A stretch of DNA of 64,000 nt from a virus. Positions 16,025 to 49,952 of the stretch are shown here, in pieces. The first letter of the stretch is position 1. Each line of letters starts with the position of its first letter. A program made the position numbers and the translations under genes. The notes under the pieces are model-generated. The model was given only the letters and a program-made list of their open reading frames with translations, did no database searches and had not been told where the DNA came from. The DNA lies in the IMG/VR virus record IMGVR_UViG_3300036719_002639, positions 16,171 through 80,170 of that record; one strand, 5' to 3'.

Positions 16025-16209
16025 TTATTTTTCTCCATAAAATTTTCTGCACGTAAATGTTGTAAGCGTTGATCAAGATCATATATCACATACTTCTGAA
16101 AGTCAATGATTTTCTTTAATCTTTCTATTTCAAGTTTATCATTACATGACGCACACTCACATTTACGTGTAGGTTCATCTTTATCTTCCCAACCATGAAC
16201 GAAATCCAT
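16021..16209 (-). CDS. Small CxCxxC protein, 62 aa
   Basis: Function unknown. The N-terminal half has a compact Cys cluster (CECASC) and the C-terminal half is a predicted coiled coil (LEIERLKKIIDFQKYVIYDL). Translation is coupled to the clamp loader by a 4-nt overlap and to the upstream gene by close spacing. It could be a small replication accessory protein, but the sequence does not show this. Confidence 0.65.
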   Translation of the reverse strand: MDFVHGWEDKDEPTRKCECASCNDKLEIERLKKIIDFQKYVIYDLDQRLQHLRAENFMEKNK

Positions 16210-21668: not shown

Positions 21669-21742
21669 TGGTGCGGTATGGGAAATTCGAATTCCCAACA
21701 AAACATTGGCAATGTCTTATGTTACCATTACACTAATACCGC
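21669..21742 (-). tRNA. tRNA-Gly(GCC)
   Basis: Acceptor GCGGTAT, anticodon loop TTGCCAA, T loop TTCGAAT, encoded CCA. Its 5' 26 nt overlap the 3' end of the homing endonuclease gene, whose stop codon lies in the D loop. Confidence 0.9.
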
Positions 21743-22628
21743 ATAAAAGTTTCTTTATCTGTTCAAAATATTTTAAACCATACTGTTCATTAAAATTACC
21801 ATCTTTAGATACATCAATGGTTATTAATTGTATATTGTTTTTAAGACATAATTCAGATTTAATTTTGTCTTTTTTTATATTATTAATTAATCGCTTCTCA
21901 CCATATATTGGTTTATAATGGATGATGCCGTTAAATTCAATTCCTAATTTATAATCAGGAAAATATAAATCTAGTTCATATGGATTTATTATTTTTCTAC
22001 TATTAAAAAGACATTTGGGTTTTAATGTTGTTAATATTTTATCTTTCAAATATTTCTCTAATTTAGATGTTGACGCATGTTTTATATGATGTTGTAAATT
22101 ATATTTATTTCTGCATGTCATATTACAAAATTGATTTGTTGTTTCCTTTTTGTAAGATTTACGTGTAAATTCTTTATTACAATAAGTACAAATTAGTTGT
22201 TTTTCGTATACTTTAGTTCGATATTTAGTTCGATATTTACTTGCACACGATTTACTACAACATATTGCATCCTTTTCTCCACTATGAAATGATATTTTAC
22301 ATTGTGGACATATTTTATTTGGTAGTTTATTTGCATTAAATTTACCAGAACACGTATGATTACAAAAATGATTATTAGATTTAATAAAATCTTTATAAAT
22401 TAATATTATATCGCAGCCACATTGTTTACATTTAGTGGATATACGATTTTGTTTAAACTTTGCTCTACATGTATTTGAGCAACAGTCTAATTTTCTCCCA
22501 CCAGACAAACAAGATAACACTTCATTTTTTGGTTTATAATAAATGTTATTACATTGTTTACATTTAAGTGGTATAGGATCACGACTCTTATAATTTTTTA
22601 ATTCTTCTATTGTTATTTGTATGTTCAT
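21717..22628 (-). CDS. Vsr-like (EDxHD-type) homing endonuclease with zinc-finger array, 303 aa
   Basis: The N-terminal 180 residues hold a run of CxxC pairs (CKQC, CCSNTC, CKQCGC, CNHTC, CPQC, CCSKSC, CTYC, CNMTC), i.e. several consecutive zinc fingers for DNA recognition. The C-terminal domain has YELDLYFPDYKLGIEFNG then HYK, the pattern of Vsr-like homing enzymes related to I-Bth0305I. The gene is inserted between tRNA-Gly(TCC) and tRNA-Gly(GCC); its last codons (CGISVMVT) are read from the 5' part of tRNA-Gly(GCC). A late promoter box precedes the ATG by 5 nt. Confidence 0.85.
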   Translation of the reverse strand: MNIQITIEELKNYKSRDPIPLKCKQCNNIYYKPKNEVLSCLSGGRKLDCCSNTCRAKFKQNRISTKCKQCGCDIILIYKDFIKSNNHFCNHTCSGKFNANKLPNKICPQCKISFHSGEKDAICCSKSCASKYRTKYRTKVYEKQLICTYCNKEFTRKSYKKETTNQFCNMTCRNKYNLQHHIKHASTSKLEKYLKDKILTTLKPKCLFNSRKIINPYELDLYFPDYKLGIEFNGIIHYKPIYGEKRLINNIKKDKIKSELCLKNNIQLITIDVSKDGNFNEQYGLKYFEQIKKLLCGISVMVT

Positions 22629-22632
22629 ATAA

Positions 22633-22640
22633 CTATTTAG
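22633..22640 (-). promoter_or_regulatory. Late promoter abutting the homing endonuclease start
   Basis: The minus strand reads ACTAAATA then GTTAT then ATG, lying between two tRNA-Gly genes. Confidence 0.55.
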
Positions 22641-22645
22641 TGAAA

Positions 22646-22724
22646 TGGAGCATCAGGCGGGTAACTCTCCCGCTTATATTATCCACATTGGAAGTGTGGT
22701 GCCTCAATTTTAGGCTACTGATGC
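22646..22724 (-). tRNA. tRNA-Gly(TCC), non-canonical loops
   Basis: Acceptor GCATCAG, anticodon arm CCACA-CTTCCAA-TGTGG, CCA encoded. The T loop is AGAGTTA instead of TTCRANY and the D loop lacks GG, so the usual elbow contacts are missing. Confidence 0.7.
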
Positions 22725-22730
22725 ATGAAT

Positions 22731-22807
22731 TGGAGCAGTAAGTCAGACTTCCACTGACTAAATGTGAGGTTGCAACTCACCGCTTCGTGTGTTTTAGCTT
22801 TTACTGC
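22731..22807 (-). tRNA. tRNA-Cys(GCA), non-canonical loops
   Basis: Acceptor GCAGTAA/TTACTGC, anticodon arm GTGAG-TTGCAAC-CTCAC, CCA encoded. The T loop is TGGAAGT and the D loop lacks GG. Confidence 0.75.
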
Positions 22808-22814
22808 ATAAATA

Positions 22815-22889
22815 TGGCGAGTCAAATCGGCTATGCTCCGATATCAAAAGCGCAATAAGCTTCCGTTTTAATGTTTAAACTATTGACTC
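22815..22889 (-). tRNA. tRNA-like cloverleaf, apparent anticodon ATT (Asn)
   Basis: A full cloverleaf: acceptor GAGTCAA/TTGACTC, D stem GTTT/AAAC, anticodon arm GAAGC-TTATTGC-GCTTT, T arm ATCGG-AGCATAG-CCGAT, CCA. A34 is unusual and both D and T loops lack consensus bases, so it may be a tRNA-derived RNA rather than a translator. Confidence 0.55.
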
Positions 22890-22895
22890 ATAAAA

Positions 22896-22981
22896 TGGCG
22901 GGGATGACGGGACTTAAACCCGCATTGCTTTTCAGCGTCACCGTGACAGGGTGATATGTCTATCAATTCCACCACATCCCC
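22896..22981 (-). tRNA. tRNA-Asp(GTC) with class II variable arm
   Basis: Acceptor GGGGATG/CATCCCC with G73, anticodon arm TCACC-CTGTCAC-GGTGA (GTC, C38; both known Asp identity elements). The variable arm GCTGAAAAGC is long and the D arm is tRNA-Leu-like. It is the only Asp tRNA in the window. Confidence 0.8.
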
Positions 22982-22987
22982 AAAAAA

Positions 22988-23063
22988 TGGTACTCGATCA
23001 CAGAATCGAACTGTGATTTTCTGCATGTAAAACAGAAGTACTAGGCCGTTGTACGAATCGAGC
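22988..23063 (-). tRNA. tRNA-Val(TAC)
   Basis: Acceptor GCTCGAT, anticodon arm TCTGT-TTTACAT-GCAGA, T loop TTCGATT, CCA encoded. Confidence 0.88.
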
Positions 23064-23096
23064 ATTAAATGGTCGAGAAAAGACTCCGCTTTAAGA

Positions 23097-23113
23097 GGAT
23101 TTCACTATTGTTC
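23097..23113 (-). repeat. 17-nt motif copy 1 (GAACAAYAGTGAAATCC)
   Basis: Minus strand GAACAATAGTGAAATCC, directly 3' of a strong hairpin. Related copies are at 23209-23225 and 24222-24238. Confidence 0.6.
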
Positions 23114-23151
23114 TGTTGGTTCTCCCTTCACTCACGGTGATGGAGCCAACA
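23114..23151 (-). ncRNA. Strong hairpin, candidate small RNA
   Basis: Minus strand TGTTGGCTCC pairs with GGGAG-AA-CCAACA, and inside TCAC pairs with GTGA around loop CGTGA, giving about 14 pairs in 38 nt. Confidence 0.5.
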
Positions 23152-23208
23152 TCTATCTCTCTTCTTAGTCTACCTGCACCTGAACTGGTGCTGTTCCTTT
23201 AGCCAACT

Positions 23209-23225
23209 GGATTTCACTGTTGTTC
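23209..23225 (-). repeat. 17-nt motif copy 2
   Basis: Minus strand GAACAACAGTGAAATCC, one base different from copy 1. It follows a GGCTCCA segment that copy 1 also has upstream. Confidence 0.6.
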
Positions 23226-23328
23226 TCTACGTGGAGCCATATATCCCGCTATAGTCGGGGTATGGACATGTATATGATCTATCAGTTGTGTTAACTATTT
23301 TCATGCAATTCTCTAGGGTTTAATCATT

Positions 23329-23565
23329 ATGGAGAACTGCACTAAAATACGTTCAAAGCTAATTAAACTATCTCTCGAAATTGGTAACGGATCAAATAAT
23401 GGTCGTAAATTTCAGGCTTGTTATGATCGTGGTATAGCACTTTGTATTATTGATTCATCTAAACAAAAGTATGTAAAGGAATCTAATAGTATCAAATTTC
23501 TTGATATCATAACTAACATAATAAACGAAAGTAGCGGGTCAATGAGTCGAACATTGAATGTATAG
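23329..23565 (+). CDS. Possible small protein, 78 aa, antisense in tRNA cluster
   Basis: The open frame starts at ATG 23329 with only a weak TAGGG upstream. The product has KIRSKLIKLSLEIGNGSNNG and a basic C-terminus, with no recognised family. Its last codons run antisense over a degenerate tRNA-Met-like gene. Codon composition looks gene-like, but the reading frame could be chance. Confidence 0.35.
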   Translation: MENCTKIRSKLIKLSLEIGNGSNNGRKFQACYDRGIALCIIDSSKQKYVKESNSIKFLDIITNIINESSGSMSRTLNV

Positions 23566-23604
23566 GTTATGAGCCTCACCAGAAAACCCTTTCTAGCTAC
23601 CCGC
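23534..23604 (-). tRNA. tRNA-Met(CAT)-like, no encoded CCA
   Basis: T arm CAATG-TTCGACT-CATTG and D arm with GG are intact, and the anticodon loop CTCATAA gives CAT. The acceptor pairs over only 6 bp (GCGGGT/ACCCGC), the outer anticodon stem is mismatched and CCA is absent. It may be an initiator-like tRNA or a decaying copy. Confidence 0.55.
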
Positions 23605-23616
23605 AAATTCTAAAAT

Positions 23617-23691
23617 TGGTGCCGATAGAGGGAATCGAACCCACGCAAATCTGCTTATGAAACAGACACTCAGCCATTGAGTGATATCGGC
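23617..23691 (-). tRNA. tRNA-Met(CAT)
   Basis: Acceptor GCCGATA/TATCGGC, anticodon arm TCTGT-TTCATAA-GCAGA, T loop TTCGATT, CCA encoded. The CAT anticodon could alternatively be Ile2 if modified. Confidence 0.85.
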
Positions 23692-23787
23692 GTAAAATAA
23701 TACCAAGTGTCCTGAACCTCTAGACGACTGATGAACTTTCATTCACCAAGATGGATTCGAACCATCGTTTCTCAGTTGATTAAACGC
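23692..23787 (-). ncRNA. Circularly permuted tRNA-like RNA (candidate YrlA-type Y RNA)
   Basis: On the minus strand the order is: T arm GATGG-TTCGAAT-CCATC (23750-23766), a closed acceptor-like hairpin TTGGTGAA-TGAAAG-TTCATCAG with 8 pairs (23728-23749), then a tRNA-Glu-like D arm CGTCTAGAGGTTCAGGAC (23710-23727). The flanks can pair with each other (TTGG/TCAA, TTA/TAA with a 2-nt bulge), where a tRNA would have its anticodon arm. This T-acceptor-D order with fused acceptor ends and a flanking stem is how I recall bacterial YrlA Y RNAs mimicking tRNA. A permuted tRNA-Glu gene is the alternative, but no anticodon is evident. Confidence 0.65.
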
Positions 23788-23856
23788 AAGTGGTCTACTA
23801 TTAACCTACAATAGTTTGATCTATCGTTGGAAGTTGCATCCAAACTACTTGCTAAA

Positions 23857-23930
23857 TGGTGGGAACAGAGAATTTCGAAATCTCATTGCTAGGGTTTCAC
23901 TCTAGAGTACTGCCTTTGTACGACATTCCC
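23857..23930 (-). tRNA. tRNA-Phe(GAA)
   Basis: Acceptor GGGAATG, anticodon loop GTGAAAC, T loop TTCGAAA, CCA encoded. The closing pair of the anticodon stem is A-C mismatched. Confidence 0.82.
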
Positions 23931-24131
23931 AAAAATCTATAGGTATCGTGTCCTAAAACGCTTACATTTACATGACTTTAAGTGTCATAATCAACTATCG
24001 CTGAAAATCTTCGAAATTCCGCTATAGTTGATTTGGAAATTGGTGTAGTCTCTCCTTACTGCCACTATTGACATGATCAGTGTACGGCTGGATGTCATTT
24101 CGGGTTAGTTACCGTATCCATTTCTGGAAAT
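23931..24131 (-). other. Structured interval between tRNA-Phe and tRNA-Ala
   Basis: 200 nt without a normal tRNA. On minus it holds a 10-bp hairpin AATCAACTAT/ATAGTTGATT (23989-24033) enclosing a T-loop-like AATTTCGAAGATT, then ATGAC-ACTTAAA-GTCAT. It ends in AGGACACGATACC, similar to the 3' side of the permuted tRNA-like RNA. An isolated ACACCA suggests a decayed tRNA end. No gene seen. Confidence 0.4.
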
Positions 24132-24207
24132 TGGTGGAGCAGATGGGAGTTGAACCCACATTATGCCACATTGCAGGTGTGGTGCATGGCCTTTATGCTA
24201 CTGCCCC
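24132..24207 (-). tRNA. tRNA-Ala(TGC)
   Basis: Acceptor GGGGCAG (with the G3-U70 wobble of Ala), anticodon arm CCACA-CCTGCAA-TGTGG, T loop TTCAACT, CCA encoded. Confidence 0.9.
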
Positions 24208-24350
24208 ATAAAATATGTGCTGGATTTCACGAATGTTCCACCTACCACTCCACTGATCAGGTGGTTGTAAGGTGTCTATCAGCGTAACAGACTAGTATGT
24301 TTTTTTCTTAATAATAGAATTTTTTTGTTTGCTGGAACTAGTCTAAATTG
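24208..24350 (-). other. Intergenic interval with inverted repeat and third 17-nt motif
   Basis: Contains the motif copy GAACATTCGTGAAATCC (24222-24238) preceded by a CCACC/GGTGG hairpin, and an 8-bp inverted repeat AGACTAGT/ACTAGTCT (24289-24296, 24337-24344) flanking an A/T-rich loop. No tRNA fits. Confidence 0.45.
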
Positions 24351-24650
24351 TTAAATGTCCGAAGCTTCTCTTGTGCGTCTATAATCTTGGCTTCTTACAT
24401 TGTTTTCTTCACTGGTTTGAAAATGGCTCGATACTGTTTCAACCTTCCATCCATTATCATCACCAATTCTTAAATACTTTCCTAAGATTGCATACTTTGC
24501 AGGTATGTAAGCTACTTGTGTAGCATTTTTCTTAGAGAGTGTGCATTGTTTGTAATCATTCTTCATGATTTGTCTTCTGATTGTTGTAGTGTCACTATCT
24601 TCATAGGGACTTCTTAAAACATTGTCAGGTGTACTTGGATAAACTTTCAT
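24351..24650 (-). CDS. Hypothetical protein inside tRNA cluster, 99 aa
   Basis: A GAAAG-type ribosome site precedes the ATG. The polar, basic protein contains RRQIMKNDYKQCTLSKKN and YIPAKYAILGKYLRIGDD. No family recognised. It sits between tRNA-Glu(TTC) and the structured interval upstream of tRNA-Ala, on the tRNA strand, so it is presumably co-transcribed. Confidence 0.6.
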   Translation of the reverse strand: MKVYPSTPDNVLRSPYEDSDTTTIRRQIMKNDYKQCTLSKKNATQVAYIPAKYAILGKYLRIGDDNGWKVETVSSHFQTSEENNVRSQDYRRTREASDI

Positions 24651-24676
24651 AATTACTTTCTTTCTTTGTTAAAAAA

Positions 24677-24752
24677 TGGCACCCGATAGGGGTTTCGATC
24701 CCCTTTCTAGAGTTTGAAGGACTCCTATCCTAGCCAGTAGACGAATCGGGTG
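24677..24752 (-). tRNA. tRNA-Glu(TTC)
   Basis: Acceptor CACCCGA/TCGGGTG, anticodon loop CCTTCAA, CCA encoded. The T loop is ATCGAAA (A54 instead of T54). Confidence 0.87.
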
Positions 24753-24760
24753 TGTTAAAA

Positions 24761-24835
24761 TGGCACCTCATGAGGGTATCGATCCCTCTCCTACAGATTG
24801 AGAATCTATCGACCTAGCCACTAGTCCAATGAGGT
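24761..24835 (-). tRNA. tRNA-Glu(CTC)
   Basis: Acceptor ACCTCAT, anticodon loop TTCTCAA, T loop ATCGATA, CCA encoded. D and T arms resemble the neighbouring Glu(TTC) gene, suggesting local duplication. Confidence 0.87.
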
Positions 24836-24842
24836 ATTAAAG

Positions 24843-24931
24843 TGGTGCATCTGACAAGAGTTGAACTTGTATTTGCCTAACGGCCTTTTGGGTTCGTAGC
24901 CCAACGTGCTAATCCATTACACTACAGATGC
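24843..24931 (-). tRNA. tRNA-Arg(ACG) with class II variable arm
   Basis: Acceptor GCATCTG, anticodon arm TTGGG-CTACGAA-CCCAA, a 17-nt variable region with stem GCC-gtta-GGC, T loop TTCAACT, CCA. Arg tRNAs are normally class I. Confidence 0.82.
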
Positions 24932-24938
24932 ATAAAAA

Positions 24939-25014
24939 TGGTGCAGACACTAGGATTTTAACCTAGAACAAGAGGATAGGAACCTCACATGATGTACACT
25001 TTCACCATGTCTGC
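24939..25014 (-). tRNA. tRNA-Arg(CCT)
   Basis: Acceptor GCAGACA, anticodon loop TTCCTAT, T arm CTAGG-TTAAAAT-CCTAG, CCA encoded. Confidence 0.83.
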
Positions 25015-25020
25015 ATGAAA

Positions 25021-25096
25021 TGGCGCAGATACCAAGATTCGAACTTGGAATTAAAGGGTAGAAACCTATCGTGATAGTCCGTTTCACTATACCTGC
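25021..25096 (-). tRNA. tRNA-Arg(TCT)
   Basis: Acceptor GCAGGTA, anticodon loop TTTCTAC, T loop TTCGAAT, CCA encoded. Similar in its arms to the preceding Arg(CCT) gene. Confidence 0.83.
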
Positions 25097-25104
25097 ATTA
25101 AAAT

Positions 25105-25180
25105 TGGAGCCAACAGTGACAATCGAAGTCACAGCCTTCACATTACCAATGTGATGTTCCGCCACTTGAACTATGTTGGC
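25105..25180 (-). tRNA. tRNA-Thr(GGT)
   Basis: Acceptor GCCAACA, anticodon arm TCACA-TTGGTAA-TGTGA, T loop TTCGATT, CCA encoded. Confidence 0.9.
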
Positions 25181-25185
25181 AAAAA

Positions 25186-25263
25186 TGGTCGGTCTGGTGG
25201 AAGTCGAATCCACATTATACTGGTTAAGAGCCAGTTCTATATGCCTTTCTAGTCACAGACCGA
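25186..25263 (-). tRNA. tRNA-Lys(CTT)
   Basis: Acceptor TCGGTCT/AGACCGA, anticodon arm ACTGG-CTCTTAA-CCAGT, T loop TTCGACT, CCA encoded. Confidence 0.88.
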
Positions 25264-25267
25264 TAAA

Positions 25268-25342
25268 TGGTGCTCCTATTGGGTATCGAACCCACTTCCC
25301 AAGGGTAAAAGCCTCGTGTTAATCCACTACAACTCTAGGAGC
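25268..25342 (-). tRNA. tRNA-Lys(TTT)
   Basis: Acceptor GCTCCTA, anticodon loop CTTTTAC, T loop TTCGATA, CCA encoded. Confidence 0.88.
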
Positions 25343-25352
25343 GTAAAAAAAT

Positions 25353-25432
25353 TGGTGCGCCGAGTGAGAATTGAACTCACCTCGATCAATGTATAAGATT
25401 GAGCTAAATGCTACCAGCTTAGTTTTCGGCGC
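25353..25432 (-). tRNA. tRNA-Ile(TAT)
   Basis: Acceptor GCGCCGA, anticodon arm TCAAT-CTTATAC-ATTGA, T loop TTCAATT, CCA encoded. It reads the rare ATA codon, frequent in AT-rich phage genes. Confidence 0.88.
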
Positions 25433-25436
25433 AAAA

Positions 25437-25515
25437 TGGTCAGCTAGGTCAGACTTGAACTGACAATATTCCTGTATCCAAAACAGGTCGCCTACCAATT
25501 GGCATCACTAGCTGA
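25437..25515 (-). tRNA. tRNA-Pro(TGG)
   Basis: Acceptor TCAGCTA/TAGCTGA, anticodon arm CCTGT-TTTGGAT-ACAGG, T loop TTCAAGT, CCA encoded. Confidence 0.87.
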
Positions 25516-25547
25516 TTAAAATTATTTGTGGTCTATCCCCACCGTCA

Positions 25548-25629
25548 AATCAATGCTGGTTCACTTTAATCCTGTTGACCAGTAAATTCACCTATCACAT
25601 CAGGGTTCGTAGGTGAAGATGTATTGATT
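25548..25629 (-). ncRNA. Three-way-junction RNA with possible kissing loops
   Basis: Minus strand: P1 AATCAAT/ATTGATT closes two hairpins, P2 TTCACCTA/TAGGTGAA and P3 CTGGT/ACCAG. The P2 loop contains CCTG and the P3 loop CAGG, able to pair. It lies between two tRNA-Pro genes and does not fold as tRNA. Confidence 0.55.
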
Positions 25630-25634
25630 AAATT

Positions 25635-25711
25635 GGTCGGAGTAACAGGGATCGAACCTGCATGACTTATGGGCCCAGGCCATACGCTTCGCCAATTAAG
25701 CTATACTCCGA
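25635..25711 (-). tRNA. tRNA-Pro(TGG), C33 variant
   Basis: Acceptor TCGGAGT/ACTCCGA, anticodon arm TATGG-CCTGGGC-CCATA giving TGG with G37 (usual for Pro) but C instead of T at position 33, T loop TTCGATC, CCA. Confidence 0.72.
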
Positions 25712-25716
25712 TAAAA

Positions 25717-25794
25717 TGGTCGGCTATGGTGGTAACGATCCACCCTTCTCTGTGTATCAGACAGAAGTAATCAAACCTATATACTAATAGCCGA
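25717..25794 (-). tRNA. tRNA-Ile(GAT)
   Basis: Acceptor TCGGCTA, anticodon arm TCTGT-CTGATAC-ACAGA, T loop ATCGTTA, CCA encoded. Confidence 0.86.
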
Positions 25795-25799
25795 TAAAA

Positions 25800-25892
25800 T
25801 GGTGGCAATAGTAGGAATCGAACCTACCGTGTTTACCCGAAGGGAACAGATTTACAGTCTGCTACGACACAACCAATAGTCGTCTTACTGCC
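25800..25892 (-). tRNA. tRNA-Tyr(GTA)
   Basis: A class II tRNA as expected for Tyr: acceptor GGCAGTA, anticodon arm GCAGA-CTGTAAA-TCTGT, variable arm with CCCTTCGGG, T loop TTCGATT, CCA. Confidence 0.9.
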
Positions 25893-26260
25893 ATAAAAGG
25901 TTTTACTATGAATTCCTAGAAGTTTCCTTCATTAAAAAAGTCATTGGGATTAGAACGCTTCCAATCAGCGGTTGAATTCTCGACTCTAACTGTGATTCAA
26001 CAGACCTTATCTATTGAATAACATTCAACTTCTCACCGAATGAGGTTGAACTTAATCAACCCCTCTTCTACGAGATTTACTAAGGTTCCCCAACGCATCA
26101 GGGAATCCTTTAAACAATCTATATTCAGTTTTCAAATATCTTCACAACATCTTTTAGCGTTGTAGGCACTTTCGCACCATTTATTAACAGCCCCATCGTC
26201 GCTGTTAACCTTGGATACCGTTCTTGTATCCTAACCGTTATAATATCAAGTCTATAAACG
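25893..26260 (-). other. 5' leader region of tRNA cluster 1 with serial hairpins
   Basis: 368 nt without a gene. Successive hairpins on the minus strand: GGATAC/GTATCC, TTAACAGC/GCTGTTAA, GGTTGA/TCAACC, GTTGAAT/ATTCAAC, GAAG-gaaa-CTTC. A 16-nt segment (26121-26136, ATATTCAGTTTTCAAA on plus) is identical in the leader of cluster 2. Likely the transcribed leader with RNA processing sites; a clear promoter is not evident. Confidence 0.5.
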
Positions 26261-26287
26261 AAAAAACCCACCGTTTTACTGGTGGGT
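26261..26287 (-). terminator. Rho-independent terminator
   Basis: Minus strand ACCCACCAG / CGGTGGGT hairpin followed by TTTTTT. It ends the operon of small genes just upstream of the tRNA cluster. Confidence 0.8.
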
Positions 26288-26308
26288 GTGTGATCCTAAT
26301 GATCCTAT

Positions 26309-26413
26309 TTAACACCCACTACAACCTGCATCAAAGCGTTCTATCGCCTTGGGCATCGGTTTCACAGTTCCTCTATAAATTTCACAAACTCTATTCATAA
26401 CTTCTCTCTTCAT
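26309..26413 (-). CDS. Small CxGC-ended protein, 34 aa
   Basis: A short open frame starting MKREVMNRVCEIYRG and ending in DAGCSGC. It is supported by a consensus TATAAATA late promoter 4 nt before the ATG and by its position directly upstream of a terminator. No homologue recognised; three Cys suggest metal binding or a redox role. Confidence 0.55.
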   Translation of the reverse strand: MKREVMNRVCEIYRGTVKPMPKAIERFDAGCSGC

Positions 26414-26417
26414 TAAC

Positions 26418-26425
26418 TATTTATA
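26418..26425 (-). promoter_or_regulatory. T4-type late promoter
   Basis: TATAAATA then GTTA then ATG on the minus strand (start at 26413). Confidence 0.6.
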
Positions 26426-26452
26426 ACAATCATATCACTTTTCTACAGAAAA

Positions 26453-26587
26453 TCAAGAAATATTTTCAACTTTCTTTTTACATACGGAATTCACTGCATA
26501 TCTTATACAATTTCCGCACACTCTTCTGCCCTTGTTCCTTAGTAATTTTCTCTTACATCTAGAACAATGTACGTATCTCGTCTTCAT
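26453..26587 (-). CDS. Small zinc-ribbon protein, 44 aa
   Basis: The frame begins MKTRYVHCSRCKRKLLRN and contains CSRC, CGNC and a further Cys: a compact four-cysteine zinc ribbon with many Lys/Arg, typical of small phage regulators or RNA/DNA-binding proteins. A host-type promoter (TTGACT-N17-TAAGTT) ends 7 nt before the ATG. Confidence 0.6.
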   Translation of the reverse strand: MKTRYVHCSRCKRKLLRNKGRRVCGNCIRYAVNSVCKKKVENIS

Positions 26588-26594
26588 TGTTAAT

Positions 26595-26623
26595 AACTTA
26601 TCATGACACTCACTGGAAGTCAA
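26595..26623 (-). promoter_or_regulatory. Host-type promoter, weak -10
   Basis: -35 TTGACT (26618-26623), 17-nt spacer, -10 TAAGTT (26595-26600), 7 nt to the ATG at 26587. Confidence 0.4.
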
Positions 26624-26641
26624 TAGGTATTTTGAAAATTG

Positions 26642-27079
26642 TTAAATAGATTTCTTTCGTTTGGGTGTTTTAGGTTCTTGTACGGGTTTTTTATAATATA
26701 CACCATGTATCATGATTAATCTATTTCGTATTGGACTTTTAGGATCGTTTGCCCATTTAAATAAATCTTCGATGCTGTATTTGTCGATAGGATATCCTTT
26801 TGAACACCAAGCATACAATGGTTCAATGATATCCAATGCTGTACCATCTTCATGAACTCTTTTAATCTCACCATTATGTATTCTTTCGACAACTTTTACA
26901 CAATTTTCAAAAAACGCTAAATGTATGTCATAATAATCATCTACATGTTCTGGATCAAATAAACCCCGTTCTCCTGTAGCATTCCTTTTACTTGGTGGAT
27001 TCTTTTTAAGATAATCTACAATATATTTCAAAGTATGTAAAACTGTTGTATACATCGTTGTTTCTTCTAATGTATTCAT
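26642..27079 (-). CDS. Hypothetical protein, 145 aa
   Basis: A soluble alpha-helical protein with a basic C-terminus (PKTPKRKKSI). It overlaps the upstream gene by 4 nt and has AGGGAG before the ATG. No family recognised. It is the last gene of the operon started by the metallopeptidase-like gene. Confidence 0.65.
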   Translation of the reverse strand: MNTLEETTMYTTVLHTLKYIVDYLKKNPPSKRNATGERGLFDPEHVDDYYDIHLAFFENCVKVVERIHNGEIKRVHEDGTALDIIEPLYAWCSKGYPIDKYSIEDLFKWANDPKSPIRNRLIMIHGVYYKKPVQEPKTPKRKKSI

Positions 27080-33792: not shown

Positions 33793-33935
33793 ATTGCTTT
33801 CTGAGATAGGATTCGAACCTACATTTTGTTTCCGCACCCAATGACAGGCGGCATGTGTTAATCCACACACAGCAGAGTTACCCGTAGTGTAAACGGGAGT
33901 TACCGCAGGGTAAGCCAGTTCCCCCACTCATTAAC
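33793..33935 (-). other. Degenerate tRNA-like sequence at the end of cluster 2
   Basis: A clear T arm (GTAGG-TTCGAAT-CCTAT) and a class II-like D region (GGGGGAACTGG) are present, with hairpin CCCGT-TTACACT-ACGGG. The acceptor pairs poorly (TGAG/CTCA only) and CCA is missing. GGTAACTC is repeated. Probably a decayed or derived tRNA. Confidence 0.4.
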
Positions 33936-33941
33936 TAAAAT

Positions 33942-34017
33942 TGGTGCGCCTAGAGGGACTTGAACCCCCAAAACTCAGCTTCTTAGACTGATATGTATGC
34001 CATTCCATCATAAGCGC
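33942..34017 (-). tRNA. tRNA-Leu(AAG), short variable loop
   Basis: Acceptor GCGCTTA/TAGGCGC with A73, anticodon arm TCAGT-CTAAGAA-GCTGA, T loop TTCAAGT, CCA. The variable loop is about 5-6 nt instead of a class II arm. Confidence 0.82.
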
Positions 34018-34084
34018 ATAAAACGAATTCTAAAATAATATGGAGTCTGCACCACCACTAAGACCAAGTTAGTCTATTTTCGGT

Positions 34085-34143
34085 GTACTATTCGCAACCT
34101 TTTGTGAACCGTGTCGTCAATGTTCTTCAACATCCCGTAGTAC
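34085..34143 (-). ncRNA. Structured interval between tRNA-Leu(AAG) and tRNA-Leu(TAA)
   Basis: Minus strand GTACTA/TAGTAC closes a hairpin ATGTT-gaag-AACAT and a further loop. The adjoining sequence 34040-34084 has ACTAA-CTTGGTC-TTAGT, an anticodon-arm look-alike (TGG) followed by GACTCCA but no T arm. Not a normal tRNA. Confidence 0.4.
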
Positions 34144-34186
34144 GTTTCTTCCACGCTTAAATAACTTCGCTAACTATTTTAGAAAT

Positions 34187-34262
34187 TGGTGCTAGTGGTG
34201 GGACTTGAACCCACAAACAACAGATTTTAAGTCTGCCCGATAAGCCGTTCTCGTACACTAGC
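34187..34262 (-). tRNA. tRNA-Leu(TAA), short variable loop
   Basis: Acceptor GCTAGTG, anticodon arm GCAGA-CTTAAAA-TCTGT, variable loop TGTTT, T loop TTCAAGT, A73, CCA. Confidence 0.88.
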
Positions 34263-34268
34263 GTAAAT

Positions 34269-34344
34269 TGGTGCATCTGGTGGGATTCGAACCCACAAAA
34301 CCTAGATTCTAAGTCTAGTACATAAGCCGTTCTGTTACAGATGC
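34269..34344 (-). tRNA. tRNA-Leu(TAG), short variable loop
   Basis: Acceptor GCATCTG, anticodon arm CTAGA-CTTAGAA-TCTAG, variable loop about 5 nt, T loop TTCGAAT, A73, CCA. Confidence 0.88.
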
Positions 34345-34350
34345 GTTAAA

Positions 34351-34426
34351 TGGTGCAAGTGAAGGGATTCGAACCCTTAAACAACAGTTTTTGAAACTGC
34401 CCGATAAGCCTTTCTCGTACACTTGC
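34351..34426 (-). tRNA. tRNA-Leu(CAA), short variable loop
   Basis: Acceptor GCAAGTG, anticodon arm GCAGT-TTCAAAA-ACTGT, variable loop TGTTT, T loop TTCGAAT, A73, CCA. Close relative of the Leu(TAA) gene. Confidence 0.88.
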
Positions 34427-34433
34427 ATAAAAT

Positions 34434-34511
34434 TGGTTCCCCCATCATGATTCGAACATGATCTAAGATGGTCAAAGCATCTTGTGCATAAGCCATTACA
34501 CTATAGGGGAA
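34434..34511 (-). tRNA. tRNA-Gln(TTG)
   Basis: Acceptor TTCCCCT, anticodon arm AGATG-CTTTGAC-CATCT, T loop TTCGAAT, CCA encoded. Confidence 0.87.
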
Positions 34512-34520
34512 TGTTAAAAT

Positions 34521-34594
34521 TGGTTGTCCTACCTTGAATCGAACAAGGTTAAATAGATTCAGAGTCTACTGTACAGCCATTATACCATATGACA
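34521..34594 (-). tRNA. tRNA-Gln(CTG)
   Basis: Acceptor TGTCATA/TAGGACA with one mismatch, anticodon arm GTAGA-CTCTGAA-TCTAT, T loop TTCGATT, CCA encoded. Confidence 0.82.
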
Positions 34595-34602
34595 GATAAA
34601 AT

Positions 34603-34676
34603 TGGAGCCTGTTAAGGGAATTAAACCCTTACCCACTGATTACGAAACAGTGATACTATCGTTGTACTAAACAGGC
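34603..34676 (-). tRNA. tRNA-Thr(CGT)
   Basis: Acceptor GCCTGTT/AACAGGC, anticodon loop TTCGTAA with a T-T closing mismatch, T loop TTTAATT, CCA encoded. Confidence 0.8.
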
Positions 34677-34684
34677 AATTAAAA

Positions 34685-34778
34685 TGGAGCCAACGGTGGG
34701 ATTTGAACCCACATCATCACTTTTACATGACTTAACCCGATTACAAATCGGGGCCATAGCCGTTCTGGACACGTTGGC
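34685..34778 (-). tRNA. tRNA-Thr(TGT) with class II variable arm
   Basis: Acceptor GCCAACG/CGTTGGC, anticodon arm CCCGA-TTTGTAA-TCGGG, a 23-nt variable region with TCA/TGA, T arm GTGGG-TTCAAAT-CCCAC, CCA. Total 94 nt; Thr tRNAs are normally class I. Confidence 0.82.
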
Positions 34779-34785
34779 AAGTAAA

Positions 34786-34861
34786 TGGAGCACCCGACAG
34801 GCATCAAACCTGCAACCTTGTCCTTACAAAAGACTTGCTCTATCAATTGAGCTACAGGTGC
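34786..34861 (-). tRNA. tRNA-Thr(TGT), class I
   Basis: Acceptor GCACCTG, classical D arm AGCTCAATTGATAGAGC, anticodon loop TTTGTAA, T loop TTTGATG, CCA. A second gene for the same anticodon as its neighbour but of normal shape. Confidence 0.84.
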
Positions 34862-34867
34862 GAAAAT

Positions 34868-34941
34868 TGGCAGGAACACAGGGATTCGCACCCTGACCAA
34901 AAGTTTTGGAGACTATTGTGCAACTTTAACACTTTGTTCCT
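34868..34941 (-). tRNA. tRNA-Trp(CCA)
   Basis: Acceptor AGGAACA/TGTTCCT with G73, anticodon loop CTCCAAA, T loop TGCGAAT, encoded CCA. Confidence 0.85.
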
Positions 34942-34948
34942 ATAAAAT

Positions 34949-35042
34949 TGGAGGAAGGTGGGAGAATTGAACTCCCGCCACCTTTTAAGGGGTGGAACAA
35001 TTTAGCAAATTGTCTCGACAAACCGACATTCGACTACCTTCC
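34949..35042 (-). tRNA. tRNA-Ser(GCT)
   Basis: A class II tRNA as expected: acceptor GGAAGGT, anticodon arm ACAAT-TTGCTAA-ATTGT, variable arm CCACCCC/GGTGG, T loop TTCAATT, CCA. Confidence 0.9.
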
Positions 35043-35047
35043 AAAAT

Positions 35048-35145
35048 TGGCTGACTCGGCTCGACTTGAACGAGCACACACATCCCGTTAAGAATGTCAT
35101 GGATGGTTTAACAGACCATTGCCTTACCATTAGGCCAACGAGTCA
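35048..35145 (-). tRNA. tRNA-Asn(GTT) with class II variable arm, copy 1
   Basis: Acceptor TGACTCG/CGAGTCA with G73, anticodon arm ATGGT-CTGTTAA-ACCAT, long variable stem ACATTC/GGATGT, T loop TTCAAGT, CCA; 98 nt. Asn tRNAs are normally class I. Confidence 0.84.
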
Positions 35146-35166
35146 AACTTAAATTGTTTCTTGATA

Positions 35167-35194
35167 TCGTGTCAAGGACGCTTGATTTGCACAA
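35167..35194 (-). ncRNA. Hairpin between the two tRNA-Asn genes
   Basis: Minus strand TTGTG/CACGA plus inner TCAAG-CGTC-CTTGA. The 3' side ends in GACACGATA, also found at the end of the interval 23931-24131. Confidence 0.4.
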
Positions 35195-35221
35195 GGGGTT
35201 ACGTTTACCCAATATTCAAAA

Positions 35222-35308
35222 TGGCTCCAGAGGTAGGACTTGAACCTACACGCCCATTACAGGCATCAGATTAACAGTCTGACATGGCTACAATTACATC
35301 ACTCTGGA
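35222..35308 (-). tRNA. tRNA-Asn(GTT) with class II variable arm, copy 2
   Basis: Acceptor TCCAGAG/CTCTGGA with G73, anticodon arm TCAGA-CTGTTAA-TCTGA, variable stem GCC-tgtaat-GGGC, T loop TTCAAGT, CCA. Confidence 0.83.
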
Positions 35309-35318
35309 AACGAAAAAC

Positions 35319-35412
35319 AAGTTGGCTTTCTACTTTTTATTTAGCGTCTAAAAATCGAAAAAGACTGATTATGGACTCTCGCCCACGTTTTATTGTTTGC
35401 TGTAACCAACTT
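35319..35412 (-). ncRNA. Structured RNA family, unit B
   Basis: Terminal helix AAGTTGG/CCAACTT. Inside it are 5' strand ACAGCAAA and 3' strand AAAAAGTAG-AAA, shared with units A and C. Near the 3' side is a hairpin GTCT/AGAC whose loop contains TTTTCGATTTT (T-loop-like). The terminal stem sequence differs from the other units but pairs, i.e. covaries. About 94 nt; no anticodon, no CCA. Confidence 0.75.
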
Positions 35413-35422
35413 AAAATAAAAC

Positions 35423-35530
35423 AGATTGTGTTTTCTACTTTTTAGAGAACGTCGAAACTCCCATCTTTTTGATTTATGTGATCGTCTGGTGGATCACTAA
35501 CGTATTGTTGTTTTTTGCTGTACACAATCT
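35423..35530 (-). ncRNA. Structured RNA family, unit A
   Basis: Terminal helix AGATTGTGT/ACACAATCT (9 bp), inner strands ACAGCAAAA and AAAAAGTAG-AAA. Middle hairpin GTGATC/GATCAC, and a 3' hairpin GGAG/CTCT with loop TTTCGACGTT. About 108 nt, directly upstream (on minus) of unit B. Confidence 0.75.
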
Positions 35531-35534
35531 AAAA

Positions 35535-35612
35535 TGGCTAACCCTGCTGGACTCGCACCAGCAAAAATTGACTAACGTTAATTGTCAACTTTCGGCTACT
35601 AGCTAAAGGTTA
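35535..35612 (-). tRNA. Degenerate tRNA with 11-nt anticodon loop
   Basis: Acceptor TAACCTT/AGGGTTA with CCA and T arm GCTGG-TGCGAGT-CCAGC are intact. The anticodon stem TTGAC/GTCAA closes an 11-nt loop (AATTAACGTTA), so the anticodon cannot be assigned. Possibly a special or inactive tRNA. Confidence 0.5.
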
Positions 35613-35619
35613 ATGAAAA

Positions 35620-35716
35620 TGGAGGAAGCGGTGGGATTCCAACCCACGGAGGATAGTTTGAGCTACCCCCTTCCGTTTTCAAGACGGACGCAATAAAGAC
35701 GCTCTGCCACGCTTCC
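35620..35716 (-). tRNA. tRNA-Ser(TGA)
   Basis: Class II: acceptor GGAAGCG, anticodon arm TCCGT-CTTGAAA-ACGGA, variable stem GGGGGTAG/CTATCCTCC, T loop TTGGAAT, CCA. Confidence 0.9.
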
Positions 35717-35727
35717 ATAAAATAAAC

Positions 35728-35892
35728 AGGTTGATTTTCCTACTTTTTACACAGAAAATCGAAACTGTCACAAGTTTTACATCAGTAGATCACGATGTCA
35801 GGTTTTTATTTATGTGTCGCCTAGATAAAGACACTATGCCCGAAGGCATTTATTTACTATTTAGTTTATTGTTTGTTTGCTGCAATCAACCT
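35728..35892 (-). ncRNA. Structured RNA family, unit C
   Basis: Terminal helix AGGTTGATT/AATCAACCT (9 bp, perfect), inner strands GCAGCAAA and AAAAAGTAG-GAAA. Middle hairpins ATGCC/GGCAT and GTGTC/GACAC, and a 3' hairpin ACAG/CTGT with loop TTTCGATTTT. About 165 nt, between tRNA-Ser(TGA) and tRNA-His. Confidence 0.75.
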
Positions 35893-35897
35893 AAAAT

Positions 35898-35973
35898 TGG
35901 GGCGATATACGAGACTTAAACTCGCTCTAAAACATTCACAGTGTTTCGTGCTAATCATTACACTAATATCGCC
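35898..35973 (-). tRNA. tRNA-His(GTG)
   Basis: Acceptor GGCGATA/TATCGCC with C73, anticodon arm AAACA-CTGTGAA-TGTTT, T loop TTTAAGT, CCA encoded. Confidence 0.87.
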
Positions 35974-35978
35974 ATTGT

Positions 35979-36036
35979 GGGACTTCATACCACGTTTGGG
36001 CCAAGCTAGAGGCTTATAGTGTGGGTTTGTCGTCCC
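35979..36036 (-). ncRNA. Closed structured RNA upstream of tRNA-His
   Basis: Minus strand GGGAC/GTCCC closes 58 nt, with a possible inner CCCAC/GTGG pairing and hairpin AAGC/GCTT. Not tRNA-like. Confidence 0.45.
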
Positions 36037-36061
36037 TAAAATCTTTATAACTTGCCAGATA

Positions 36062-36112
36062 TGGCGCATTAATGGCTATTATGGCACATTAATCGTCGTA
36101 TTTGGCGCATTA
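36062..36112. repeat. Three short repeats TGGYRCATTA-type
   Basis: TGGCGCATTA (36062), TGGCACATTA (36082), TGGCGCATTA (36103), about 20 nt apart. On minus each ends in GCCA, as if remnants of CCA-ended RNA genes. Confidence 0.5.
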
Positions 36113-36114
36113 CT

Positions 36115-36132
36115 ACTTTTCAAATATTCAGT
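36115..36132. repeat. 18-bp inverted repeat, right copy
   Basis: Exact inverse of 33759-33776. It overlaps the 16-nt segment ATATTCAGTTTTCAAA shared with the leader of cluster 1. Confidence 0.7.
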
Positions 36133-36172
36133 TTTCAAAAATCGTGTTGTGCTTTCGCAATCAACTTCTAAT

Positions 36173-36200
36173 ACTTTATCACAACTTCAAAAAATGTCAA
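36173..36200 (-). promoter_or_regulatory. Host-type promoter for tRNA cluster 2
   Basis: -35 TTGACA (36195-36200), 16-nt spacer, -10 TAAAGT (36173-36178). It lies about 200 nt upstream of tRNA-His on the same strand. Confidence 0.5.
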
Positions 36201-36210
36201 CCCATAAAAC

Positions 36211-36242
36211 AAAAAACCCTAATCTTTTTTTAAGATCAGGGT
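36211..36242 (-). terminator. Rho-independent terminator
   Basis: Minus strand CCCTGATCTT / AAGATTAGGG then TTTTTT. It closes the operon of small genes upstream. A second palindrome ATCTCTTA/TAAGAGAT lies at 36271-36288. Confidence 0.75.
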
Positions 36243-36370
36243 TATAGTTGACAATATAATACCTGACCTTATCTCTTATGTAAGAGATTAGACCATGTTG
36301 TACTATTTTGCAATGACGTTTTCATATTGTTATAATTATTTAGTATATCCATTCAACTTTTCAATAAAAT

Positions 36371-36679
36371 TTATGAGAAATATTTAGTTACATCAAATTC
36401 TTTTAATGTTTTTGGTGGAACACCAGCTTGTTCCAACTTTAAAACTACACTTTTAGCTTGTTTAATATACGGTTTAACATTATGAGAAAGTCGTTGTAAA
36501 ATTTCAATTTTATTTTTAACATCATTTTCGATATTATCAATATTCTTTAAAACTGTTGTACCATCACTACCTAACATTTGATTACCATCTAACCATGTTG
36601 TCAAGAAATATCTATATGTGCCAGTAATCTCTTCACAAATTAAACCCATTTTTTCGTAATCTTTATCATCAAATCTCAT
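36371..36679 (-). CDS. Hypothetical helical protein, 102 aa
   Basis: Predicted to be mostly alpha-helical (IDNIENDVKNKIEILQRL) without Cys clusters. A CTAAATACTT box and an AGGTGAT ribosome site precede the ATG, so late expression is likely. Similar in size and style to the neighbouring 101-aa protein. Not recognised. Confidence 0.65.
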   Translation of the reverse strand: MRFDDKDYEKMGLICEEITGTYRYFLTTWLDGNQMLGSDGTTVLKNIDNIENDVKNKIEILQRLSHNVKPYIKQAKSVVLKLEQAGVPPKTLKEFDVTKYFS

Positions 36680-48539: not shown

Positions 48540-49952
48540 ATGAAAACAAACAGCAGAACATGTAACGGCGCAAACGCATTCGAACACTCAGAAAACCATC
48601 TTTTGGAATTCTTTTCCAAGGCTGGATCATTATACACAAAGAAGGAGAGTTACTACGGTAATGAGTCTTCTGCTTTGGAATTGTTCAAAACTGCTTGGAG
48701 AGCAGATGCTGAAAAGGCTATGAAGTTGCTTTTCTGGTTGCGTGATTGCCGTGGTGGTGCAGGTAACAGAAGTGGTACAAGAGAAATCTTAACTTGGTTG
48801 GGCAATACTCACTCAGAATGGGTAAATGCCAATATCAACCTTATCCCTAAGTATGGTCGTTGGGATGATTTAACCGCTTTGTATAACACTCCTTGTGAGA
48901 ACTCAGCATTAGCTTGTTGGGAAACTGGTATCTTGGGTGATGATTCTGTTTGTGGTCTTGCTTCAAAGTGGGCTGATAGACAGGATGTAAAGCTTCGTAA
49001 GCATATGAAGCTTTCTCCAAAGGCTTTCAGAAAGCTTGTTGTACAGAAGACTAAGGTAGTTGAAACCATTATGTGTAATAACGAATGGGCTAATATCAAC
49101 TATTCTACAGTTCCTTCTGTAGCTTCTGCTCGTTATAAGAACGCTTTCAAACGCCATGATGCACAGTATGAGGAATGGGTTAAGTCTTTGACAAAAGAAG
49201 GTACTGAAACCAAGGTCAATGCTGAAACATTGATGCCTCATGATATTGTAAGAATGGTACAGACTGACATCAATGATGCTACTACTGGTGCATTAGCTGA
49301 TGCTCAGTTGAAGGCTATGCCTAATTTCATGGAAGGTACTAATTACAGAATTATGCCTATTTGTGACTTCTCTGGTTCAATGCATGTTCAAATGTCTGGA
49401 TCAATTCAGGCATATGAGGTGTCTTTGGCATTAGGGTTGTATTGTTCTGAAAAGGTTGGTTCAGAGAATCCTTTCTACCGTAAGGTGATTCCATTCTCTA
49501 CCGATTCTAAGATCGAGTCTTGGAAGAATAAGTCTTTTGCACAAGCTGTAAGAGATATTCCTAACGGGTATTGTGGTGGTACGAATATTCAGAAGGCTTT
49601 GAACAAGATTCTTGAAGCAGCTACTTTATTCAATGTTACGAATGATCAGATTCCTAACGTCTTGTTAATTCTTTCTGATATGCAGTTCGATCAGGGTGTT
49701 GAAGATTGTGGTACACCTGTAAACGAATCTTTGGCTAAGTGGAAGTCTGCTGGTTATGATATTCCAAAGGTAATCTATTGGAATCTTGCTGGTAATGCTG
49801 GACAACCTGCTACTTGTGCAGACAAGAATGTTGCCTTGGTAAGTGGTTTCAGCCCATCAGTATTGAAGGCAGTATTGGGTGGAACAGACTTTAGCCCTAT
49901 TGCCATCATGAATAGTGCAATTAGTAAATATAATGTAGTAGTTCCAAACTAA
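48540..49952 (+). CDS. Ro60/TROVE-vWA-like RNA-binding ring protein (DUF2828-like), 470 aa
   Basis: The N-terminal alpha-helical repeat domain shows LLFWLRDCRGGAGNRSGTRE and LIPKYGRWDDLTALY, signatures of the TROVE/DUF2828 group. The C-terminal vWA domain has the metal-site motif CDFSGSM (DxSxS) near residue 277 and later LLILSDMQF. Ro60 proteins bind Y RNAs and misfolded structured RNAs and, in bacteria, can tether them to PNPase. It is alone on the plus strand amid late head genes, with a strong host-type promoter, suggesting early independent expression. Codon choice (TTG, AAG) looks like that of highly expressed genes here. Candidate Y-like RNAs lie in the tRNA clusters. Confidence 0.85.
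   Translation: MKTNSRTCNGANAFEHSENHLLEFFSKAGSLYTKKESYYGNESSALELFKTAWRADAEKAMKLLFWLRDCRGGAGNRSGTREILTWLGNTHSEWVNANINLIPKYGRWDDLTALYNTPCENSALACWETGILGDDSVCGLASKWADRQDVKLRKHMKLSPKAFRKLVVQKTKVVETIMCNNEWANINYSTVPSVASARYKNAFKRHDAQYEEWVKSLTKEGTETKVNAETLMPHDIVRMVQTDINDATTGALADAQLKAMPNFMEGTNYRIMPICDFSGSMHVQMSGSIQAYEVSLALGLYCSEKVGSENPFYRKVIPFSTDSKIESWKNKSFAQAVRDIPNGYCGGTNIQKALNKILEAATLFNVTNDQIPNVLLILSDMQFDQGVEDCGTPVNESLAKWKSAGYDIPKVIYWNLAGNAGQPATCADKNVALVSGFSPSVLKAVLGGTDFSPIAIMNSAISKYNVVVPN

Follow-up and report, generated by a model that had tools for sequence, protein, structure and literature searches.

Candidate phage Y RNAs: a family of structured RNA units in tRNA arrays and beside Ro60-like genes

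Structured units between the tRNA genes of a phage

The window, by which we mean the whole 64,000-nucleotide stretch of phage DNA under analysis (positions 16,171 to 80,170 of IMG/VR record IMGVR_UViG_3300036719_002639), contains two tRNA arrays on its minus strand and, on its plus strand, a gene for a protein with predicted similarity to Ro60 (Table 1). Reading the sequence together with ARAGORN calls, we located three units, named B, A and C, on the minus strand at 35314-35893 within the spacers of one array. The original prediction, made from the sequence alone, had described three units with a common layout, and the strands it quoted lie where it had placed them, including the conserved inner strands CAGCAAA and AAAAAGTAG. 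It had given each unit a terminal helix of 7-9 base pairs (bp) that differs from copy to copy yet still pairs. The pairing and the variation were both observed in B, A and C, and the helix, called P1 here, is longer than proposed, with about 10 pairs in each unit when U-G is counted. The P1 strands are UAAGUUGGUU/AGCCAACUUG in B, UAGAUUGUGU/ACACAAUCUG in A and UAGGUUGAUU/AAUCAACCUG in C. All three units run from the 5' strand of P1 to CAGCAAA, and later through AAAAAGUAGrAA to the 3' strand of P1 and UGUU. The proposed hairpin with a UUUCGA loop is clear in A and C, and the version in B has a stem of 4 bp.

The number of units also changed from three to four. A search of the whole 80,170-base virus record with the 5' part of the unit returned one extra place, a shorter unit (D) between the tRNA-Glu and tRNA-Ala genes of the other array, which features the helix UAGACUAGU/ACUAGUCUG with CAGCAAACAA and is also found with R1, a model built from other phages (see below). 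UGUU, which the original prediction had not mentioned, follows P1 in all four units.

Table 1. Coordinates of the units, the tRNA arrays and the Ro60-like gene in the window
Feature	Position	Strand	Parts	Basis
Unit B	35314-35413	minus	P1 35404-35413 with 35318-35327; CAGCAAA 35396-35402; UUUCGA hairpin ~35346-35365; AAAAAGTAG 35330-35338	R1 63.3 bits, E 9e-14; sequence
Unit A	35418-35531	minus	P1 35522-35531 with 35422-35431; CAGCAAA 35514-35520; T-like hairpin 35445-35462; AAAAAGTAG 35435-35443	R1 47.5 bits, E 1.7e-9; sequence
Unit C	35723-35893	minus	P1 35884-35893 with 35727-35736; CAGCAAA 35876-35882; T-like hairpin ~35751-35768; AAAAAGTAG 35740-35748	R1 32.5 bits, E 1.8e-5; sequence
Unit D	24284-24345	minus	P1 24337-24345 with 24288-24296; CAGCAAA 24328-24334	Pattern match, sequence, helix, R1 30.7 bits, E 5.6e-5
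tRNA array with B, A and C in its spacers	33942-35972	minus		ARAGORN
Second tRNA array, contains D	21669-25892	minus		ARAGORN
Ro60-like protein (predicted TROVE-like and vWA fold), proposed partner of the units	48540-49952	plus		Pfam, AlphaFold2 model, Foldseek, VIA-align

Three other records are near-identical to the window around the units, the largest of which is 248 kb. Between the relative G004 (39,498 bases) and the window there are 31 best protein matches, of roughly 28-85% identity and in largely the same order, and the tRNA array of G004 contains two units with helices AGGUUAG/CUAACCU and AGGUUGAUU/AAUCAACCU. Among neighbouring proteins, one of 102 amino acids led to three near-identical loci, and one of 74 amino acids led to four such loci and to G004. 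Portal relatives (30 records) were searched for CAGCAAANAA only, with matches read in near relatives, and methylase relatives (L132-L152) were checked for tRNAs only.

When folded singly, the units gained mildly over shuffled sequences (z of -2.0 for B, -2.2 for A, -2.5 for D and -1.4 for C), so thermodynamics is weak evidence here and comparison decides. The signature of a helix with CAGCA and TGTT is unspecific, with four matches in the window, which are the four units, versus 1.8 in Markov shuffles. A scored scan of the window, the near-identical 248 kb record in pieces and G004 placed A, B and C at 33-34 and the G004 units at 31 and 35, with the rest at 26 or below; D fell under the cut-off of the script.

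Other features were seen in these spacers. Further helix-bounded stretches that R1 does not match occur on the minus strand near 25515-25633, 34018-34186 and 23940-24131, and one of them, near 24000-24100, has AATCAACTAT/ATAGTTGATT flanking a UUUCGA loop. The sequence TTTGAAAACTGAATA, which presumably resembles the boxA antitermination element of rRNA operons, precedes both tRNA arrays of the window (36125-36140 and about 26121-26135, minus) as well as the G004 array (L122 near 1520, minus).

A covarying RNA family in other phages

We scanned IMG/VR and genome_contigs with sequence patterns; totals are lower bounds and counts hold among the matches listed. A strict first pattern returned 13 stretches, comprising three near-identical phages and 10 chance matches that contain no unit. 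Looser scans, in which the 3' strand was relaxed and UGUU was required, returned at least 119 and at least 118 stretches that were mostly chance matches; a complementary P1 was required for keeping a stretch, and this filter yielded independent members of the family. No unit was recognised among the fetched matches listed for the looser scan of genome_contigs, where the best-scoring match (L310) featured a 7-bp helix and was judged to be chance-like. BLAST searches of three unit stretches against the phages collection gave weak, scattered matches for two of them and matches dominated by tRNA-Gly for the third, with no unit recognised among those listed.

The independent members revealed a hairpin, GUGAG-UUUCGAnnn-CUCAC, and the pattern AGTTTCGAN{5,27}AAAAAGTAGNAA returned at least 119 stretches. 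Parsing all loci resulted in at least 118 matches, 84 of them distinct, and CAGCA or CTGCA adjoins the helix in 105 matches (74 distinct), among which are window units A and C as well as one G004 unit. The shared anatomy consists of a terminal helix of variable sequence with CAGCA alongside, a UUUCGA hairpin that resembles a tRNA T arm, AAAAAGUAGrAA and usually UGUU. The 74 distinct units feature 24 different 8-nucleotide (nt) strands on the 5' side of the helix, and 92% of helix positions 4-11 are paired, versus 75% (maximum 79%) when whole 3' strands were shuffled 1000 times. A hairpin of at least five pairs is present in 70 of the 74; UUUCGA itself occurs in 74/74 by selection, as part of the search pattern. 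The distance from CAGCA to GUAG ranges from 57 to 162 nt. Many units with long inserts (e.g., L427, L405, L455 and L445) share a second module between CAGCAA and the T-like hairpin, which consists of CUGGAG, a hairpin and UUGAAGG and could be a distinct effector domain.

To the three window copies the original prediction had ascribed compensatory changes indicative of a functional RNA, and the same signal was found in an alignment of 25 of the 35 shorter units, all of which are from other phages. Across P1 and the hairpin, 92.5% of cells hold standard pairs, and 10 of the 16 pairs are changed on both sides. Double-changed cells number 36 versus 10.0 in shuffles, the covariation score is 0.302 versus 0.102, and none of 500 shuffles reached the observed value on any of five measures, a figure that is not a probability given that the structure was read from these same sequences and some of the phages are related. 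Sliding the 3' side by 1-3 columns lowered pairing to 38-49%, and RNAalifold predicted both helices from the same alignment. The original prediction had also proposed a new structured RNA family and named a lack of homologues and covariation as grounds against it. Many relatives exist, they covary, and Rfam returned no match to them (see below), all of which speaks in favour of the proposal.

From these 25 units we built a covariance model, R1, which models the short class and gives rough E-values. Because R1 was trained without any sequence from the window, it is an independent test there. In a search space of 119,698 bases (G004, the window and the initial 16 kb of the window's record), R1 recovered all four window units (Table 1) and scored the G004 pair at 41.0 and 29.8 bits, with the next match at 14.5. 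Searching the whole 248 kb record left the scores of B, A and D unchanged, and C scored just 17.8 bits there (E 0.34, in a first look).

Proximity to Ro60-like genes and occurrence in cultured phages

The protein encoded at 48540-49952 matches Pfam DUF2828 and DUF7788 and is classed by PHROGs as an RNA-binding protein. An AlphaFold2 model derived from 37 sequences reached a mean predicted local distance difference test score (pLDDT) of 82.9; an earlier model from six sequences was poor (pLDDT 57.3) and was set aside. With the predicted model as query, Foldseek returned TROVE/Ro60 structures at ranks 1-11 (best E 1.8e-8), and VIA-align did so in rows 1-10 (Z 18.7-13.2; root-mean-square deviation 4.7-6.0 over 390-410 residues), followed by vWA domains at Z 10.9 and below. 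One structural match is titled Ro60 dimer from Thermus phage phiLo. A sequence search of the PDB with the homologue from locus L405 gave no match at E up to 10, and the basis of the Ro60 assignment is consequently the predicted fold, together with the naming of homologues by others. Taken together, these comparisons predict that the window protein has a Ro60 fold (TROVE plus vWA). Homologues are encoded in 671 phage records (E 1e-5 or better, duplicates included), and those of mycobacteriophages among the matches listed are annotated as Ro-like RNA binding protein. TROVE proteins have been reported in some jumbo phages (PMC7824862).

In each of the first four loci inspected, an open frame of 468-484 codons lies downstream of the unit, and its product is 33-36% identical to the window protein. 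The neighbourhood was then counted over 341 loci that had been fetched by DNA pattern alone, with no protein used. A Ro60-like gene is present in 94 of the 102 loci with a parsed unit versus 2 of the 239 loci that have none, and in both of the latter the fetched DNA ends at the match, so that the unit is truncated. The corresponding Fisher value of 1.2e-71 ignores kinship and is indicative only. With distances measured to the start of the hidden Markov model (HMM) match, 65 of the 74 distinct units have a same-strand Ro60-like gene at a distance of at most 2 kb. Of these, 59 precede the HMM match by 15-431 nt (median 152), three others precede it within 2 kb, and three follow it within 500 nt. 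The nine units with no Ro60-like gene comprise four with 230 nt or less of DNA after them, two from the window, one from G004, and two (L401 and L448) with more than 2 kb. A cruder count that includes duplicates placed 87 of 108 units within 1.5 kb of such a gene. The units also keep company with tRNAs, which are present in the fetched DNA of 64/74 units and lie within 3 kb on the same strand for 63/74, at a median distance of 103 nt.

We also applied R1 to the whole records of eight cultured phages that encode a Ro60-like gene, and five had matches at E 1 or better. The four matches in Cronobacter phage S13 and the three in Citrobacter phage Ci1 lie in the spacers of tRNA clusters, with helices such as AGAUUGAC/GUCAAUCU, AGGUUGAGUU/AGUUCAACCU and AGAAUCAUU/AAUGAUUCU; one Ci1 match overlaps a short gene annotated as hypothetical. 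Aeh1 features AGGCUC/GAGCCU and GGAAUGA/UCAUUCC helices next to a tRNA, and Ahp1 has two matches. In BUCT-ZZ01, two tandem matches lie directly 5' of the Ro60-like gene, preceded by another unit that was recognised by eye, and three further matches occur elsewhere, one of which encloses a canonical T arm. Among the stretches examined, wV8 has two matches in a tRNA cluster (E 0.0005 and 0.0014), and Listeria phage P100plus has three in a row (E 0.037, 0.023 and 0.15) between a promoter-like TTGACA and the Ro60-like gene. Such E-values are modest, and the conserved strands are often missing; the case for the cultured phages rests on position and complementary helices.

Several further RNAs and genes were observed in these phages. 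The Mycobacterium phage Clautastrophe stretch gave no R1 match. Just 3' of its Ro-like gene (L528:5531-5639) lies a sub-threshold match to the YrlA model (39.3 bits, E 1.8e-5, cut-off 69). This match independently points to an association of the protein family with Y RNAs, which may be of different types. P100plus encodes, about 1.3 kb downstream of its Ro60-like gene, a protein annotated as an RNA-2',3'-PO4:RNA-5'-OH ligase of the RtcB type (L526:6815-8026), an arrangement like that of bacterial RNA-repair operons. Its tRNA cluster (L526:2432-2983) contains a ROOL match just below the Rfam cut-off (86 bits vs 99.1, E 3.4e-16). Downstream of Ro60 in S13 are two tRNA-like RNAs of 113-121 nt (L502:4896-5016 and 5026-5138) in which an insert occupies the position expected for the anticodon arm. 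By eye, the first insert reads GAGUAGAAAAACG-CAAACU-GAC-AAGUUUG-UAUUCAGCACUC and resembles a circularly permuted Y module, with GUAGAAAA, a capped helix and UUCAGCA. A script for circularly permuted modules found none, but its limits were set too tightly to admit the S13 insert, for which the evidence is this reading by eye.

Transcription has been described for the Listeria phage CKA15, in which three strongly transcribed and apparently noncoding regions lie within 2 kb upstream of a homologue of Rsr, a protein that was detected in purified particles; Y RNAs are one explanation that the authors offer (PMC12282133). The relevant parts of that paper describe neither a motif nor a structure and do not decide which region would be the Y RNA. 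The CKA15 genome (OR088597) contains, at 25210-25618, the same three-unit stretch as P100. The top transcribed region (26,236-26,727) matches by offset the ROOL-like stretch of P100plus, not the units, and assuming no large insertions or deletions it would be a ROOL-like RNA. The three-unit stretch may be one of the other two transcribed regions, and as a sign of a discrete small RNA these published data are suggestive only.

Candidate Y RNAs and rival explanations

We compared the units with known RNAs. Run on the whole window at its own cut-offs, Rfam returned tRNAs only, and within 33900-36400 none of the units was covered by a convincing match at E up to 10. ARAGORN and the tRNA model RF00005 called none of the four units, and RF00005 had none on B, A and C even at E up to 10. 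The YrlA model (RF02553) was above its cut-off in none of the eight cultured phage records, a result that concerns Rfam's model only, as the control genomes likewise gave none. Like YrlA, the bacterial Y RNA and partner of Rsr/Ro60 (described in part in PMC7790460), the units would be small RNAs with a long end-to-end helix and a possibly tRNA-like part, most of them encoded near a Ro60-like gene. Unlike YrlA, they carry CAGCA and AAAAAGUAGrAA, occur in several copies per phage and often lie inside tRNA arrays, and they are not YrlA as Rfam models it. The rnaC and rnaD RNAs of T4 are also small RNAs among phage tRNA genes, and rnaC ends in a T-arm-like hairpin. The T4 stretch (L124) gave no R1 match at E up to 10, and neither CAGCAAA nor AAAAAGUAG, the conserved 3' strand, was seen there, which sets the units apart from rnaC/rnaD. 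ROOL and GOLLD are phage noncoding RNAs in tRNA arrays as well (for GOLLD, see PMC9569102), but they are much longer (the ROOL model has 574 positions) and do not match the units. The suspected Y RNAs of CKA15 resemble the units in that noncoding transcription occurs upstream of an Rsr homologue (PMC12282133). A search of the literature for the drum RNA motif, considered among the known phage RNAs, found nothing useful. Neither Rfam 15 nor the literature searched, which did not cover the core papers on bacterial Y RNAs, yielded a description of this family.

In the best reading of the sequence comparisons, which we consider quite likely, phages have a new Y RNA family to which the four units belong, and its members, small and noncoding, dock on the Ro60 encoded by the phage itself. 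The paired 5' and 3' ends of a Y RNA correspond to P1, which is present in all four window units and shows compensatory changes. The Ro60 orthologue expected in the same genome corresponds to the protein of predicted Ro60 fold. A tRNA-like module as in YrlA may correspond to the T-arm-like hairpin of A, B, C and the 74 UUUCGA-selected units, which comes with no D arm and is absent from unit D. The adjacency to the Ro60 gene that is typical of bacteria is seen for most distinct units of the family, though not in the window phage and G004. The family probably works like a Y RNA.

Several observations weigh against this interpretation. The original prediction had likened the units to Y RNAs and named the Ro60-like protein as their partner; the predicted fold and the gene neighbourhood elsewhere agree with it, but in the window phage, where 12.6 kb separate the gene from B, A and C, and likewise in G004, the units do not adjoin the gene and lie at a distance of 12-13 kb or more from it. 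The YrlA model at E up to 10 had no match in 33900-36400 except one that lies on two tRNA genes, and none in the L427 unit. D has neither AAAAAGUAG nor the UUUCGA hairpin, and the hairpin of B is weak. The phages are interrelated, such that the counts are not independent. Of the cultured phages, nt-1, DLP_6 and Milchi (3/8) gave no R1 match at E 1 in their whole records. E-values elsewhere ranged from 0.0005 to 0.15 in the wV8 and P100plus stretches and were at best 1.1e-5 in whole records, and AAAAAGUAG or UGUU is often missing from cultured-phage units. A strict signature (CAGCA, TGTT and a helix of 7 bp or more) recovered no R1 unit of P100plus, Aeh1 or wV8: its wV8 matches are unrelated to the units, and it gave no match in the stretches from P100plus, Aeh1 and Clautastrophe.

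We infer that the units are transcribed and processed in the window phage, bind Ro60, an RNA quality-control protein, and function through it. They would be transcribed together with the tRNA arrays and then excised. P1 and its conserved flanks, CAGCA on one side and AAAAAGUAGrAA, usually with UGUU, on the other, would form a common docking site for Ro60. The middle, which varies from copy to copy and often holds the T-arm-like UUUCGA hairpin, would be the effector end, which would recruit to Ro60 either a tRNA mimic or a partner such as a nuclease or an enzyme that handles tRNA. This could serve the quality control or the repair of RNA during infection.

Three rival explanations were weighed. 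The unit could be a cis-acting leader of the Ro60 mRNA, e.g., an autoregulatory site bound by Ro60, rather than a free RNA. The 59 distinct units that closely precede a Ro60-like gene on its strand are what a leader would produce, but we consider a leader unlikely in view of the units that lie in tRNA spacers or otherwise away from the gene (window, G004, S13, Ci1, Aeh1 and wV8), several units in tandem and the three distinct units just downstream of the gene. Alternatively, the units could be tRNA mimics that act without Ro60, as decoys for tRNA-cutting defence nucleases or tRNA-modifying enzymes, with the Ro60 neighbourhood reflecting a shared RNA-repair region. The T-arm-like hairpin in every parsed unit (UUUCGA having been selected for), the canonical T arm enclosed by one BUCT-ZZ01 unit and the RtcB-type ligase near Ro60 in P100plus agree with this, and a decoy role has already been voiced for YrlA (PMC7790460, in part). 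We regard it as quite improbable, considering that the flanks of P1 and not the T-like arm are most conserved, that the arm is missing in D and several cultured-phage units, and that the tie to one gene is very tight. That the units are mere processing signals or decayed tRNAs with no partner would fit their location between tRNAs but is very improbable in light of the missing tRNA calls by ARAGORN and Rfam, the compensatory changes and near-invariant strands across phages, and the enrichment beside one gene.

Returning to phage Y RNAs, we tentatively extend the docking interpretation to a broader, possible but rather doubtful scheme, in which interchangeable adaptor RNAs, several per phage and located in tRNA arrays, serve the phage Ro60 by combining a shared docking module (P1 with CAGCA/GUAGAAA) with varied effector modules, and in which a permuted, loop-capped module may in some phages replace the anticodon arm of a tRNA-like RNA. 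If true, the permuted module of S13 would put Ro60 directly on a tRNA body.

Although Ro60-like homologues are widespread among phage records, no phage RNA partner is pinned down in the literature examined. A compact and recognisable candidate in well-known cultured phages opens the role of viral Ro60 to direct tests, and the many natural variants would separate the Ro60 site from the exchangeable effector end. The units also account for part of the long spacers that are left without annotation in the tRNA arrays of phages.
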